Below are positions 11,758-21,403 of a stretch of DNA of 34,110 nucleotides, piece after piece (within the stretch, counting starts at the first letter, position 1; each line of letters starts with the position of its first letter). The DNA lies in contig JAQVNZ010000001.1 of NCBI GenBank assembly GCA_028702895.1, forward strand, positions 2,125 through 36,234, in the 5' to 3' direction. This stretch comes from Candidatus Iainarchaeum sp. (lineage in GTDB: Archaea > Iainarchaeota > Iainarchaeia > Iainarchaeales > JAAZKV01). The position numbers and the translations under genes are program-made. The notes beneath the pieces were generated by a model, which searched no databases, had not been told where the DNA came from, and saw only the letters and a list, made by a program, of their open reading frames with translations.

Positions 11758-12882
11758 ATGTCTTGTTTTAAAGTTTGTTTTAAAAGTGGTGGTGCGAGGA
11801 CTGGGAGGTTGAGTACTGCCCATGGTAAAATTAACACTCCTTTTTTCATGCCTGTTGCAACAAAAGGTGCTGTTAAAAATATTATTCACTCGGACTTAAA
11901 AAAAATGGGTTTTGAATGTCTTATTTCTAATGCGTTTATTAATTATTTAAATCCTGGTCTTTCATTGATTGATTCTGCTATGGGGTTGCATAAATTTATG
12001 TCTTGGGATAAAGCGTTGTTTACTGATTCGGGTGGGTTTCAATTAATTTTAGATCATTTTTCTCCAAAAATAAATGATGCTGGAGTTTCTATGATTAATC
12101 CGTTTAATAAGAGTAGAGAATTAATTTCTCCAGAAAAATCAATTAGTATTCAAAATAGTCTTGGTTCCGATGTTGCAATGTGTCTGGATCATCAACCAAT
12201 TTTTGGGAAGAGTCGTGTTGATTATTTAGAATCAACAATTAGAACTATTGAATGGGCGAAACGTTGTATTGTTTTTCATAACTCTAATGAAAATAAAATT
12301 AATCCTAATCAATTACTTTTTGGTATTGTTCAAGGGGGTAATCATATTGATCTTAGAAAGAAATGTGCGTTAGCACTTTTGCAATTAGGTTTTGATGGTG
12401 TTGCTTTGGGTGGCTTTGGAATTGGCGAAGCGCAAAATGATATGTTTAATATTATTAAACAAACAAAAAAAGTTTTGCCCGAAAATAATTGTACTTATGT
12501 TATGGGGATTGGTTCGCCTTTAGAAATTCTTAATTGTGTTTCTGTTGGTGTTGATTGTTTTGATTCTGCTTATCCTACTAGGATGGCGCGACATGGTTTA
12601 ATTTTTACTTCTGTGGGAAACATTCAAATTGATAAAAGCATTAATAAAAATTCTTTTTTACCACTGGATGATTCTTGTGATTGTTTTGTTTGTAAAACTT
12701 ATTCTAGAGCGTATTTGCACCATTTGTTTAAGACTCATGAACAAAATGCACATATTCTTCTTTCATATCATAATATTTATTTTATTCAAAACTTAATAAA
12801 AAATATTAGGGTTTCTATTAAAGAAAATAATTTTAATATTTTTAAAAAAGAGTTTGAATTAAAATATATAAAAAAATTTTGA
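11758..12882 (+). CDS. tgt: tRNA-guanine transglycosylase, bacterial (Tgt) type
   Basis: TPFFMPVATKGAVKNI, TDSGGFQ, LFGIVQGG, FDSAYPTRMARHG, zinc motif CDCFVC...H with SRAYLHHLF; no PUA extension. Confidence 0.9.
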   Translation: MSCFKVCFKSGGARTGRLSTAHGKINTPFFMPVATKGAVKNIIHSDLKKMGFECLISNAFINYLNPGLSLIDSAMGLHKFMSWDKALFTDSGGFQLILDHFSPKINDAGVSMINPFNKSRELISPEKSISIQNSLGSDVAMCLDHQPIFGKSRVDYLESTIRTIEWAKRCIVFHNSNENKINPNQLLFGIVQGGNHIDLRKKCALALLQLGFDGVALGGFGIGEAQNDMFNIIKQTKKVLPENNCTYVMGIGSPLEILNCVSVGVDCFDSAYPTRMARHGLIFTSVGNIQIDKSINKNSFLPLDDSCDCFVCKTYSRAYLHHLFKTHEQNAHILLSYHNIYFIQNLIKNIRVSIKENNFNIFKKEFELKYIKKF

Positions 12883-14493: not shown

Positions 14494-15828
14494 TCATTTT
14501 CCAAAATAACCATATTTTTTTCTCATTTCGATTATTTTTCCACAAGTTAGTGTTCCTTCTGGGCAAATTCCTTTTGTACAGGGTGGTCCAGCTTGATCAT
14601 AAATAATTGGCGCGGTTTGTTTGAGTAATTCTAATTTTTTGTTATAAAGATTTCGTATTTCCCATTGTGCGTTATTACAAGTTCTTTCTGATAAAATATC
14701 ATTGTCCATTCTTGCGTTTGTTGAAGAAATTAATTTTATTATATCGCAATTTAACAATAAATAATTTGCTGTTGTTTGTAATTTTTTTTCAATTAGTTTT
14801 TTTCTAAATTCTTTTATTTGTTTTATTTTATTTTCAAATTCTTTTAATATTTCATTATTTTGTTGTATTGATTCTGGAATTATAACATTTCTTTGTAAAG
14901 GAATATTCTCAAATTGTTCTCTAATGTTCGATGGTAATCTATGTCTTTCAAACTGATGATAACATGTTAGTGACATCATTAAACCAAAATTTGTTCTTGC
15001 GTGTTCTATTATTGAAGTGTGTCCGTATCCCATTACTCTTTGAGTTATTCCCTTTGATTTTTCTAATGCGTTTTCACTCCAATCTAGTTTTATTTTAGAA
15101 GGAGTATCTTCGCTAGTGGATGTTATTGCACCTAATGCACTTCGGATGATGGAATTTTCAAAATTATTTATTAATATTACGTTATTTTCTTCATTAATTT
15201 TTTCAAATTGTTTTTTTTCAAATTCAATAATTTGTTCTTCTTGGATTCTATTTTCTGAAAATTTTTCAATTAACATTATAATTTTTTCTTTTCCAATAAC
15301 CTGTTTTATTTTTTCTAACAATTCTTTGCTTTCAGCATTATCTAATCTTTTTATAGTTTTAAAAAAATTTATTATTTTTGAAAAGTTTAATGTTACAAAA
15401 ACATTGGTGGTAGTTGCTAATGGTAAAATATATCTTCCATCTTCAATTTTTATTCCATATAAATAATCTTTTGTTGTTGCTTTTCTTCCACAAAATCCTT
15501 CGTTTACTTGTGTTATTTTTCTATAAAAATCAATTAATTCTAAAACATTTTTCTTGTATTCATTTTCTAATTCGTTTCCAATTATTTCATTAGGTACAAT
15601 AAAAGAAGTTTCACCCATTTTTACATATCTTTGACTTTGTTGAGTATAACTGTCCAGCCCTTCACAAATATGGTGGCTTAATAATCTTGAACAATTTTCT
15701 ATGCTAAAAGAAAAATTAATTATTTTTGCGAGTTCGTTAAAACTTGCTTCGTTAAGATTGTGAGTTTGCAAATATTTTTCTAATTCCTCGATAAATTCGT
15801 CGTTTTTTTCAACAAGGGTTATTTCCAT
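14494..15828 (-). CDS. thyX: FAD-dependent thymidylate synthase ThyX, two-domain (duplicated) form
   Basis: N-half SYTQQSQRYV; C-half QFERHRLPSN and RTCNNAQWEIR. Confidence 0.85.
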   Translation of the reverse strand: MEITLVEKNDEFIEELEKYLQTHNLNEASFNELAKIINFSFSIENCSRLLSHHICEGLDSYTQQSQRYVKMGETSFIVPNEIIGNELENEYKKNVLELIDFYRKITQVNEGFCGRKATTKDYLYGIKIEDGRYILPLATTTNVFVTLNFSKIINFFKTIKRLDNAESKELLEKIKQVIGKEKIIMLIEKFSENRIQEEQIIEFEKKQFEKINEENNVILINNFENSIIRSALGAITSTSEDTPSKIKLDWSENALEKSKGITQRVMGYGHTSIIEHARTNFGLMMSLTCYHQFERHRLPSNIREQFENIPLQRNVIIPESIQQNNEILKEFENKIKQIKEFRKKLIEKKLQTTANYLLLNCDIIKLISSTNARMDNDILSERTCNNAQWEIRNLYNKKLELLKQTAPIIYDQAGPPCTKGICPEGTLTCGKIIEMRKKYGYFGK

Positions 15829-15956
15829 TATGAAATAATTATCGCAATTGTTTTTTATAATTAATTGAATTAATTTTTTTATTTTTATTAGTTTACTTTT
15901 TTGTTATGTTGTATTCTATTACTTAGTTTTAAAATAAGTTGTTACTAATTTTTTGT

Positions 15957-16523
15957 ATGCTTGTTGGAATTGTTGGTTTGAATGGCTCTGGAAAAGACGC
16001 GGTTGCTAATATTTTAAAAGAAAAATATTCTTTTTTACATTATGACTTGGGCCAAACCATAAGGGATGAACTAAAAAAAATAGGTAAAAATTATTTAGAT
16101 CGAAATGAAATGATTGTATTGGGTAATTCTCGTAGAAAAGAATTTGGTTCAAATTATTGGGTTAAATTATTACTTAAAGATTATTCTCCTCAAAAAAAAT
16201 TCGTTTTAACTTCTATTAGAAATCCCCTTGAAGCCGAAGAAATAATTTCTAAAAACGGTATTATTATAGAAGTTTTTTGCGATGTTAAAACAAGGTTTAA
16301 TCGAACTGTAGATAGAGTGAAAAATAATTCTAACGCGCATGGTGATGTAATAAGTTTTGAAGAGTTTGCTGTTAAAGAAAAAGTAGAATTAGAAAGTACT
16401 GATCCTACAAAACAACAATTGTTAAAAAGTATTAGTTTTGCTAAATATAGGATTAATAATAATGGGTCTTTAAAAGAATTAGAAGATCAAATAAATATTA
16501 TAGCAAAGGAGTTAGTGTTTTAA
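15957..16523 (+). CDS. P-loop NMP kinase-like protein (AAA/dephospho-CoA-kinase-like)
   Basis: MLVGIVGLNGSGKDAVANIL P-loop; start refined to 15957; 3' neighbour dCMP deaminase. Confidence 0.7.
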   Translation: MLVGIVGLNGSGKDAVANILKEKYSFLHYDLGQTIRDELKKIGKNYLDRNEMIVLGNSRRKEFGSNYWVKLLLKDYSPQKKFVLTSIRNPLEAEEIISKNGIIIEVFCDVKTRFNRTVDRVKNNSNAHGDVISFEEFAVKEKVELESTDPTKQQLLKSISFAKYRINNNGSLKELEDQINIIAKELVF

Positions 16524-16524
16524 C

Positions 16525-17067
16525 ATGGATTATTTTAGGCCGAGTAAAGATGAATATTATTGGAATATTGCTAAAGCAGTTGCTGAACGTACTACTTGTA
16601 TGTCTGTTAAGGGTGGAGCTTTAATTGTTAGAGATGATCAAATTATTTCTGCGGGTTATGTTGGAGCTCCGCGTAATACAAAAAATTGTTTTGAAATAAA
16701 AACTTGTTTGCGTCGCGAATTAAATGTTCCGTCTGGTCAAAGATATGAGTTGTGTCGTTCTGTTCATGCTGAACAAAACGCGATTATTAATTCTGCTCGT
16801 TCCGGATCGTCTTTGTTAGGTGGTACAATGTATTTGTATTTTGCTAAGCGAACTGAGAATGGGGAAAAATTTGTTCTAGCATATCCTTGTTTTATTTGTA
16901 AAAAAATGATTATTAATGCTGGACTAAATCGTTTTGTTGGAAACGATGAAAGTGGTAAACTTGTTTCTTATAATATTGCTGATTGGGCAAAAGATTGGCA
17001 AGATCATGATATGCTTTATGATTCAATTAAATATGATTCTAAATATGATACGAATGTGGTTAAATGA
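16525..17067 (+). CDS. Deoxycytidylate deaminase family
   Basis: HAEQNAI and YPCFICKKMI zinc-binding motifs. Confidence 0.88.
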   Translation: MDYFRPSKDEYYWNIAKAVAERTTCMSVKGGALIVRDDQIISAGYVGAPRNTKNCFEIKTCLRRELNVPSGQRYELCRSVHAEQNAIINSARSGSSLLGGTMYLYFAKRTENGEKFVLAYPCFICKKMIINAGLNRFVGNDESGKLVSYNIADWAKDWQDHDMLYDSIKYDSKYDTNVVK

Positions 17068-17729
17068 GAGGAAAATTAATTGTTTTAGAAGGAACGGATA
17101 GTAGTGGTAAAACCACACAATATAATAAATTAATTGAACGATTAGAATCTGATGGTAAAGAAATTGTTAGGTACCATTTTCCAAAACATGGTAATCTTTT
17201 TGGTGAAGTGGTTGATGATTATTTAATGGGAAAATTTGGTAGAAAAGAAGATTTGTCTCCAGAATTTATTGCCATGCTTTATATGACGGATTTTTATAAT
17301 TCAAAAAAAGAAATGGAATTAGTTTTAGATCAAGGAAAACATATTATTCTTTCGCGTTTTTTTTCATCTACTCTGACTTATCAAGTTGCTCTAACTCCAA
17401 GTGATAAAAAAGAAATTGTTTGGAATTGGATTACAAAAGTTTGTGATTTATTGCCTAAGCCAGATTTAACTTTGGTGTTAACAGTGGATCCAGAAATTTC
17501 TAAAAAATTATTGGATAATCCAAATAATGCTGATGCTTACAAAAAAGGTGCAATTAAAGATCAACATGAAGATGATTTTGAATTTCAAAAAAACGTGTTT
17601 AAAGAATATGCGCGAAATATTGATTTGCTTGGTTGGAAAAAAATTGATTGCGTTAAAAATAATTCTTTAATGTCTATAGATGAAATTCATGAAAAAATTT
17701 ATTCTATTGTAAAAAATATTTTTGATTAA
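17064..17729 (+). CDS. tmk: Thymidylate kinase
   Basis: LIVLEGTDSSGKTTQ P-loop; ATGA overlap with the deaminase. Confidence 0.85.
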   Translation: MRGKLIVLEGTDSSGKTTQYNKLIERLESDGKEIVRYHFPKHGNLFGEVVDDYLMGKFGRKEDLSPEFIAMLYMTDFYNSKKEMELVLDQGKHIILSRFFSSTLTYQVALTPSDKKEIVWNWITKVCDLLPKPDLTLVLTVDPEISKKLLDNPNNADAYKKGAIKDQHEDDFEFQKNVFKEYARNIDLLGWKKIDCVKNNSLMSIDEIHEKIYSIVKNIFD

Positions 17730-17752: not shown

Positions 17753-18994
17753 ATGTTTGAAAACTTGAAAAAAAATGATTTGGTAATTGCTAATTTGATT
17801 TTAGCAGAAAAAGAAAGACAAATGAATGGTTTAGAATTAATCCCTTCTGAAAATCTTGTTTCAAAATCAGTTTTAGAAGCTCTTGGTTCTTATCCTGTTA
17901 ACAAATATTCTGAAGGTTATCCTGGTAAAAGATATTATGGGGGTAATGAATTTATTGATGAAATAGAACAATTGGCGATTGATAGATTAAAACAATTGTT
18001 TAATGCGGAGCATGCTAATGTTCAACCAAATTCGGGTTCGCCTGCGAACATGGCAGTATATTCTGCACTGTTATCTCCTGGGGATAAAGCACTTGGATTA
18101 AAATTAACTGAAGGTGGACATTTAACTCACGGTCATAAAGTAAATTTTTCTGGTAAAACATATAACTTTTTACAATATGGCGTGGATAAAGAAACTGAAA
18201 TGTTAGATTATGATGCTATTCTAGACCTGGCTAGAAAAGAAAAACCAAAATTAATTCTGTCGGGTTTTACAGCGTATCCTCGTAAAATTGATTTTAAAAA
18301 ATTTAGAGAAATTTGTGATGATGTAGGCGCATTTGCAATGGCTGATATTTCGCATATTGGTGGGTTATGTGCTACGGGAGTTCATGAAAATCCAGTTCCT
18401 TATTTTGATGTGGTTACAACAACAACGCATAAAACATTACGTGGGCCTAGAAGTGCTGTTATAATGTGCAAAGAAGAATTTGCAAGTAAAATTGACAAAG
18501 CAGTTTTTCCTGGTTTACAAGGTGGTCCTCACGAACATGTTATTGCTGCCAAGGCAGTTGCTTTCAAAGAAGCTCTTGAACCAAAATTCAAAGATTATAC
18601 TATTCAAATAGTTAAAAATGCTAAACAATTAGCTTCATCTCTAACTGATTTAGGATATCGCTTAGTTACTGGTGGTACTGACACACATTTGTTATTAGTA
18701 GATGTTCGTTCTAATGGTATTTCTGGGATTGATGCGGAAAAAGCTCTTGAGAAAGCGGGTATTTATTGTAATAAAAATACCATTCCTTTTGAAATTGGTT
18801 CTCCTTGGGATCCTAGCGGGGTACGAATTGGCACTCCCGTTCTTACAACTAGAGGGATGAAAGAAAGTGAAATGAAACAAGTAGCTGAATTTATTCATAA
18901 TGCATTACAAAACCGGTTGGATGATTTTAAATTAAAAGAAATAAAATTTAATGTAAAAGAATTTTGTAAAGATTTTGATTTTTACAAAGATTAG
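17753..18994 (+). CDS. glyA: Serine hydroxymethyltransferase
   Basis: GLELIPSENLVSKSVLEALGS, KYSEGYPGKRYYGG, VTTTTHKTLRGPR. Confidence 0.97.
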   Translation: MFENLKKNDLVIANLILAEKERQMNGLELIPSENLVSKSVLEALGSYPVNKYSEGYPGKRYYGGNEFIDEIEQLAIDRLKQLFNAEHANVQPNSGSPANMAVYSALLSPGDKALGLKLTEGGHLTHGHKVNFSGKTYNFLQYGVDKETEMLDYDAILDLARKEKPKLILSGFTAYPRKIDFKKFREICDDVGAFAMADISHIGGLCATGVHENPVPYFDVVTTTTHKTLRGPRSAVIMCKEEFASKIDKAVFPGLQGGPHEHVIAAKAVAFKEALEPKFKDYTIQIVKNAKQLASSLTDLGYRLVTGGTDTHLLLVDVRSNGISGIDAEKALEKAGIYCNKNTIPFEIGSPWDPSGVRIGTPVLTTRGMKESEMKQVAEFIHNALQNRLDDFKLKEIKFNVKEFCKDFDFYKD

Positions 18995-19357: not shown

Positions 19358-21403
19358 ATGCCTAGATTTGTAATTAAAAGAGACGGTTCGAAAGTTGCGT
19401 TTAGTGAAAAAAAAATTCAAGTTGCTATTTGGAAGGCTGTTAAGAGTGTTGGTGGGACTGATGAAAAAAAAGCAACTCATGTTGCGCAAGTAGTTATTGA
19501 AAGAATAAATAATCGTTTTATGTTAGAAGATGTTCCAACAGTTGAACAAATTCAAGATGTGGTTGAAGAAGTTTTAATTAAAGCTGGTCATGATAAGGTT
19601 GCAAAATCCTATATTTTGTATCGTCATCAACACGAATTAATGAGGGCTAGGGAAGAAATGCTTTCTGATTTTGATGTAATTGATTCTTATGTTACTCAAG
19701 AAGATTGGCGTGTTAGAGAAAATTCTAATATGGCTTATTCTTTACAAGGTTTAAGAAATCACATTTCATCTAATTTAGTTTCAAATTATTGGTTAATGAA
19801 AATTTATCCTGCTGAAATTGCTAACGCGCATAAAGAAGGAATTTTTCATATTCACGATTTAAGTGAATTAAGTGTTTATTGCGTTGGTTGGGATTTAAAG
19901 CAATTATTAATTGAAGGTTTTAAGGGTGTTCGGGGAAAAATAAGTTGTGCTCCTGCTAGACACTTTCGTTCAGCATTAGGTCAAATAGTAAATTTCTTTT
20001 ATACTCTTCAAGGAGAAGCAGCGGGTGCACAAGCGTTTTCTAATTTTGATACTTTACTTGCACCGTTTATAAGATATGATAATTTAACTAGAAAAGAAGT
20101 TAAACAAGCTTTACAAGAATTCTTGTTTAATTGTAATGTTCCGACAAGAGTTGGATTTCAAACTCCGTTTGAAAATATTACTCTTGATTTAGTTGTTCCA
20201 AATAAAATGAAAAATTTGCCGGTAATAATTGGTGGTAAACCAATGGAAGCAACTTATGGTGATTTTCAAGATGAAATTGATTTGTTTAATGATGTTCTTG
20301 CAGAAGTAATGGTTGCAGGAGACGCTGATGGAAGAATTTTTACTTTTCCAATTCCAACTTATAATATTACAAAAGATTTTGATTGGGATAATAAAAAATT
20401 AGATCAAATTTGGGATATGACTGCTAAATATGGGATACCATATTTTTCTAATTTTGTTAATAGTGATATGGATGTTGATGATGCAAGAAGTATGTGTTGT
20501 AGATTAAGGCTTGATAATAAACAATTAGAAAAACGTGGTGGGGGATTGTTTGGTAGTGCACCTATGACTGGTTCTATTGGAGTTGTAACAATTAATTTGC
20601 CTAGAATTGGTTACTTGGCCGATAATGAAGAAGAATTTTTTAACATGCTTGTTTCTGCAATGGATTTGGGAAAAGAATCTCTTATTATTAAAAGAAAAAC
20701 TTTAGAAAATTTAACTCAAAATGGATTATATCCATATTCCTCTTTTTATCTTCGCGGGATTAAAGAAGACACAGGTCAATATTGGAAAAATCATTTTTCT
20801 ACTATTGGTTTAATTGGAATGAATGAAGCATTATTAAATTTTATGAATAAAACTCTTTTCCAAGAAGAAGGAATCGCGTTTGCTAAAAAGGTAATGCTTT
20901 TTATGCGAGATAAATTAGTAAAGTATCAAGAAGAAACTGGGGATTTATTTAATTTAGAAGCTACTCCTGGTGAGGGGACATCTTATAGGTTAGCAAAAAT
21001 GGATAAGAAAAAATATCCTGATATTATTGTTGCTAATGAATCTAAAGCAAAACAAGGTGTTGCCCCATATTATACTAATTCCACTCAATTGCCAGTAAAT
21101 TATACTCATGATTTGTTTGATGCGCTTGATAAGCAAGATGATTTACAATCTTTGTATACTGGTGGAACAGTATTTCATGTTTTTATTGGAGAAAAACTTC
21201 CTTCGGGGGAAGCTGCAAAAAATCTTGTTAGAAAAATAACAGACAATTATAAATTGCCGTATGTTTCGTTAACGCCAACATTTAGTATTTGTCCAATACA
21301 TGGATATATTTCTGGCGAACACGAATATTGTCCGATTTGTGATAAAGAAGATTCTGTTAGTAAAGTAGTTCCAAGAATTTTTGATAAAAAGGAGGCGAAT
21401 TAA
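19358..21403 (+). CDS. nrdD: Anaerobic (class III) ribonucleoside-triphosphate reductase, catalytic part, lacking the glycyl-radical C-terminus
   Basis: N-terminal ATP cone (MPRFVIKRDGSKVAFSEKKI), NrdD core; ends CPIHGYISGEHEYCPICDKEDSVSKVVPRIFDKKEAN* with no RVxGY motif. Confidence 0.93.
   Translation: MPRFVIKRDGSKVAFSEKKIQVAIWKAVKSVGGTDEKKATHVAQVVIERINNRFMLEDVPTVEQIQDVVEEVLIKAGHDKVAKSYILYRHQHELMRAREEMLSDFDVIDSYVTQEDWRVRENSNMAYSLQGLRNHISSNLVSNYWLMKIYPAEIANAHKEGIFHIHDLSELSVYCVGWDLKQLLIEGFKGVRGKISCAPARHFRSALGQIVNFFYTLQGEAAGAQAFSNFDTLLAPFIRYDNLTRKEVKQALQEFLFNCNVPTRVGFQTPFENITLDLVVPNKMKNLPVIIGGKPMEATYGDFQDEIDLFNDVLAEVMVAGDADGRIFTFPIPTYNITKDFDWDNKKLDQIWDMTAKYGIPYFSNFVNSDMDVDDARSMCCRLRLDNKQLEKRGGGLFGSAPMTGSIGVVTINLPRIGYLADNEEEFFNMLVSAMDLGKESLIIKRKTLENLTQNGLYPYSSFYLRGIKEDTGQYWKNHFSTIGLIGMNEALLNFMNKTLFQEEGIAFAKKVMLFMRDKLVKYQEETGDLFNLEATPGEGTSYRLAKMDKKKYPDIIVANESKAKQGVAPYYTNSTQLPVNYTHDLFDALDKQDDLQSLYTGGTVFHVFIGEKLPSGEAAKNLVRKITDNYKLPYVSLTPTFSICPIHGYISGEHEYCPICDKEDSVSKVVPRIFDKKEAN

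Follow-up and report, generated by a model that had tools for sequence, protein, structure and literature searches.

The window (the whole 34,110-nucleotide stretch of Candidatus Iainarchaeum sp. DNA that was analysed) contains, on the reverse strand at positions 14494–15828, an intact open reading frame with an ATG start, encoding a 444-aa protein in which two stretches match the ThyX profile Thy1 (PF02511; E = 4.6e-50, 170.5 bits against a cut-off of 24.8). The protein also matched TIGR02170 (97.6, curated cut-off 87.9), and a six-frame search of the genome placed two separate Thy1 domains inside this frame. Based on the alignment of 57–74 double ThyX proteins (doublets), the N-half spans approximately residues 1–215 (15184–15828, reverse strand), with a predicted role at the dUMP phosphate and active-site loop, and the C-half approximately residues 216–444 (14494–15183, reverse strand), with predicted roles in FAD binding and dUMP activation. 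Divergent from thyX, the forward strand carries a deoxynucleoside-monophosphate-kinase-like gene (15939–16523; PF21448, E = 3.3e-08), a dCMP deaminase-like gene, whose product makes dUMP (16525–17067; PF00383, E = 2.8e-15), a thymidylate kinase, which uses dTMP (17064–17729; PF02223, E = 2e-25), a serine hydroxymethyltransferase, which recharges the methylene-folate-type donor (17753–18994; PF00464, E = 3.4e-161), and the anaerobic ribonucleotide reductase NrdD (19358–21403; PF13597, E = 2.2e-181). Most of this neighbour set, assigned by resemblance to the window genes, also lies near thyX in another genome (G004). Elsewhere in the window, the gene at 11758–12882 (forward strand) encodes a bacterial, queuosine-type tRNA-guanine transglycosylase (TIGR00430, 376 bits against a cut-off of 307), where an archaeon would be expected to carry the archaeosine enzyme TgtA.

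As the window lies on a single contig of a metagenome-assembled genome (MAG), two tandem thyX genes might have been fused by misassembly or a frameshift. The frame is open and free of stops, and full-length relatives with the same architecture and 60–62% identity to the window protein are present in two other genomes; the fusion is therefore no artefact of this kind, an explanation to which we assign a negligible probability and which these intact relatives refute.

The original prediction held that the two halves keep complementary parts of the ThyX motif, and its account of each half agreed with the translated frame and with an alignment to 32 single-domain ThyX proteins. The N-half reads SRLLSHHICEGLDSYTQQSQRY and keeps SxRY while lacking RHR; the C-half reads CYHQFERHRLPSNIREQFEN and keeps RHR while lacking SxRY, and it also retains RTCNNAQWEIR, including the counterpart of T. 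maritima R174. The finding that the prediction itself had named as its refutation, a complete motif in one half after alignment, was looked for against the same 32 proteins and was absent from both halves. Thus no single domain of the window protein has a contiguous RHR...SxRY, which is made up only by the two halves jointly, and yet the full set of catalytic contacts in T. maritima numbering (R78, H79, R80, S88, R90, Y91, R147 and R174) is present, shared out between them.

The published structures assign these residues to different subunits. In the M. tuberculosis ThyX site, R95-H96-R97 and R199 come from subunit A, S71 and R190 from B, and R87, S105, R107 and Y108 from C (PMC6514825); in PBCV-1 ThyX, Q75 and R182 are contributed by one monomer, and S88 and Q89 by another (PMC3498832). 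The N-half of the window protein carries the subunit-C role and no A-role residues: R48...S65-x-R67-Y68 (15625–15687, reverse strand), without RHR in between, aligns with M. tuberculosis R87/S105/R107/Y108, and R132 (15433–15435, reverse strand) corresponds to T. maritima R147. The C-half carries no C-role residues, combining instead the A and B roles. Its A-role residues are R295-H296-R297, which together with Q292 (14938–14955, reverse strand) align with T. maritima R78-H79-R80 and Q75, and R382 at the start of RTCNNAQWEIR (14653–14685, reverse strand), which corresponds to the dUMP-activating R174 of T. maritima (PMC8316439). The B role is represented by S272 in GHTSIIEH (15001–15024, reverse strand), a motif lacking from the N-half and equivalent to the third-subunit FAD contact S71 of M. 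tuberculosis, and by R373 in N371-A372-R373 (14710–14718, reverse strand), equivalent to the FAD contact R190.

To see how general this division is, we searched 87 genomes of the phylum for Thy1 and found ThyX in 56, mostly in the double form; with archaea of other phyla, phages, viral contigs and bacterial plasmids, the Iainarchaeota proteins made up a set of 74 distinct doublets, including that of the window. Equivalents of S88, R90 and R147 (T. maritima numbering) were present in the N-half of all 74 and Y91 in 69, while equivalents of R78 and R174 occupied the C-half of all 74; at least 66 also keep the final residue of RHR. The window protein itself shows this split in full (two Thy1 domains, S88/R90/R147 equivalents in the N-half, R78/R174 equivalents in the C-half). 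Conversely, among the 33 doublets entered into a table of residue roles, R174 was found in no N-half and R147 in no C-half, and no reversed polarity or other exception to the split occurred among the 74. In the 32 single ThyX proteins, all of the split residues were found in one domain, barring a few substitutions at weaker positions, and a profile HMM of the fusion matched ordinary single ThyX genes piecewise (residues 251–305 of the C-half, 42–160 of the N-half, and 387–436 of the C-half). The doublets fall into several deep classes with a mutual identity of approximately 15–20%, and identical polarity in 74 of 74 is far beyond chance; the split characterises double ThyX in general and is not peculiar to the window protein. 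A viral scan with the class-C alignment returned a single virus, already in the set, and a scan of genome contigs returned only the two known relatives from class A, to which the window protein belongs.

The half-specific residues are those that come from different subunits in the published structures, and their split thus predicts a composite site; since the crystal structures bring both residue sets together at a subunit interface, one such site per pair of halves is the natural reading. The part of the original prediction that proposed a composite site agrees with the published subunit assignments, but its count of roles needs amending: three subunit roles have to be placed, not two, and the residues of the third, the FAD clamp, lie in the C-half of the window protein. 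Two chains would assemble as a pseudo-222 tetramer, bringing S65, R67, Y68 and R132 of an N-half up to RHR and R382 of a C-half. This arrangement would give two complete sites per two chains and leave the remaining two sites of the usual ThyX tetramer dead. With the third-subunit FAD contacts S272 and R373 also located in the C-half, both C-halves of a class-A protein should face one another across the FAD-AMP axis, one N-half completing each. The chemistry would be the usual ThyX reaction, with the methylene carried by reduced FAD to dUMP activated by R382.

Since neither half by itself has all the residues known to matter, one of them could in principle be a relic, leaving catalysis to the other half and retained as a structural or regulatory remnant. 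We regard this as very improbable. Taken alone, the class-A C-half is without S88, R90, Y91 and R147, and the N-half without R78 and R174, and a relic would not be expected to hold exactly the residues missing from its partner, with not one exception among 74 proteins that have diverged deeply. We consider it likely that the protein is a functional, FAD-dependent thymidylate synthase in which two ThyX domains have been fused and subfunctionalised.

The predicted structure was consistent with the ThyX fold. AlphaFold2 with 14 aligned doublets gave a single-chain model with a pLDDT of 79.4 and a pTM of 0.78, and the best 50 matches listed in a Foldseek search of this model against the PDB were all ThyX (probability 1.00). 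Among viral proteins, several of the best matches were phage proteins of 461–508 aa, the top three spanning at least 436 alignment columns. A preceding model built on three sequences only was of poor quality (pLDDT 48), and deepening the alignment with single ThyX proteins cut into pieces produced a mixed alignment, which was set aside.

Genome content also bears on function. In the window genome, a MAG of 88% completeness, we found no profile match to ThyA (PF00303), no DHFR and no second ThyX, leaving the doublet as the sole thymidylate synthase candidate; the genomes in this comparison being MAGs, the absence of ThyA is no proof. Together with neighbours that make or use dUMP and dTMP, these absences make it likely, from gene content, that the double ThyX serves as the only thymidylate synthase of this organism. 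Across the phylum, ThyA was matched in 1 of 41 genomes with doublets versus 8 of 31 genomes without ThyX (p = 0.004, Fisher test, relatedness ignored), and the single match in a doublet genome was weak, covering a 213-aa frame with a stop. A congener of the window genome (G002) has ThyA in place of ThyX, and two members of the same family (G003 and G005, proteins L077 and L078) carry a single-domain ThyX with RHK replacing RHR. The family thus varies between class-A doublets, doublets of class D, atypical singles and ThyA.

A ThyX relative could also have come to catalyse another reaction, either a different nucleotide methylation or some unrelated flavin chemistry, with thymidylate salvaged or made otherwise. 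Deviations from RHR in some doublet classes (RNR, RQR, RHD) fit such a change, and these classes may have some other activity; moreover, in the genome of L073, a single-ThyX fragment apparently accompanies the class-E doublet. For the window protein, however, this is unlikely: every catalytic residue is kept in its class, its own genome offers no other candidate, doublets and ThyA almost exclude each other, and its gene sits among those of dUMP and dTMP metabolism. The class-E doublets (L065, L067 and L069–L074), in which RNR replaces RHR and the C-half is strongly altered (TVAAQG, GEGDKGYR), may have another function. In a further class (L125, L130, L131 and L136), the C-half has RQR and the N-half SLRR replacing SQRY, with the polarity of the split unchanged.

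The placement of the FAD clamp divides class A from all other classes. The motif GHxS, which contains the third-subunit FAD contact, lies in the C-half in 4 of 4 class-A proteins (the window protein among them), whereas each of the 29 other doublets tested has it in the N-half. In a 222 tetramer, provided that the tetramer is retained, this opposite placement implies that the halves are differently arranged: two C-halves would share the FAD-AMP axis in class A, and a C-half and an N-half in the other classes. The position of the third-role residues in class A points to an assembly unlike that of the other classes, and perhaps to an independent origin. In line with the latter, the free tree placed the class-A C-half among archaeal single ThyX proteins, while the other C-halves formed one clade (99/97, starred). 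A single ancient fusion, ancestral to all doublets and with the window class as a diverged member, has about even odds in our estimation. The identical polarity in all classes favours it, and the AU test rejected neither a tree with all C-halves forced together (p = 0.589) nor one with all N-halves forced into one clade (p = 0.365). Against it stand the isolated position of the class-A C-half in the free tree, the location of the FAD-clamp residues in the opposite half, and the result obtained after removal of the motif columns, when the C-halves needed 5 changes and a forced C-half clade cost 31 log units, although at p = 0.157. One fusion or several are thus both possible. We put forward more tentatively the view that obligately asymmetric fused ThyX arose at least twice, class A from an archaeal single-domain ThyX, with the same residues lost from the same halves each time but the halves differently placed around the tetramer: in class A the two C-halves would face each other across the FAD axis, and elsewhere a C-half would face an N-half.

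The window protein shares its fold with the homotetrameric ThyX of T. maritima (TM0449), M. tuberculosis and PBCV-1, and all of their catalytic residues are present over its two halves. The canonical site lies between subunits, as would that of the window protein. In contrast, canonical ThyX has one domain per chain, a complete motif and four identical sites, whereas the window protein has two domains with complementary losses and a predicted two sites per two chains. Double-domain proteins are already annotated in RefSeq as FAD-dependent thymidylate synthases, and their kind is therefore known; WP_009276148.1 of Parabacteroides and gp50 of Tunturiibacter phage Tunturi_5, for example, have two Thy1 domains with the same split polarity. 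Plasmid, phage and archaeal doublets are approximately 20% identical to the window protein, those outside class A differing from it in the half that bears GHxS. A class-A doublet from another archaeal lineage (G284, protein L082, 460 aa) is split as in the window, with an N-half lacking GHxS and a C-half bearing GHHSVIEH and RHRLPA, and is strongly diverged, with a different gene neighbourhood. The ThyX of Chlamydia trachomatis, a long form, may share the split and would then be an experimentally handled example of a split double ThyX. This enzyme has been assayed and is active (PMC3498832).

We found no description of the split in the searchable literature on long or fused ThyX, a search that excluded most subscription journals, and within that scope neither the uniform split nor the unusual location of the third role in the window class appears to have been described. 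ThyX is a studied antibiotic target, and the contributions of each subunit of the homotetramer are hard to separate. If half of the sites are naturally deleted in the doublets, each role could be mutated separately, and the need for four sites could be tested. The split is also a simple sequence rule that would set many database entries labelled ThyX apart as a distinct architecture, and doublets would be missed by motif scans requiring a contiguous RHR...SxRY.

Further variation in ThyX architecture was seen among the genomes and viral contigs searched. One genome (G056) carries two different class-B double ThyX genes (L041 and L076). Three archaeal genomes (G113, G246 and G298) have ThyX genes of 547–582 aa, in which the matches are single-domain but interrupted, in an intein-like manner. 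Three viral contigs (L018–L020) encode a 340-aa ThyX-like protein with a C-terminal extension, in which VRKRIGAAYMIKTGRI replaces RHR..SxRY; this protein shows 45% identity to residues 377–433 of the window C-half.
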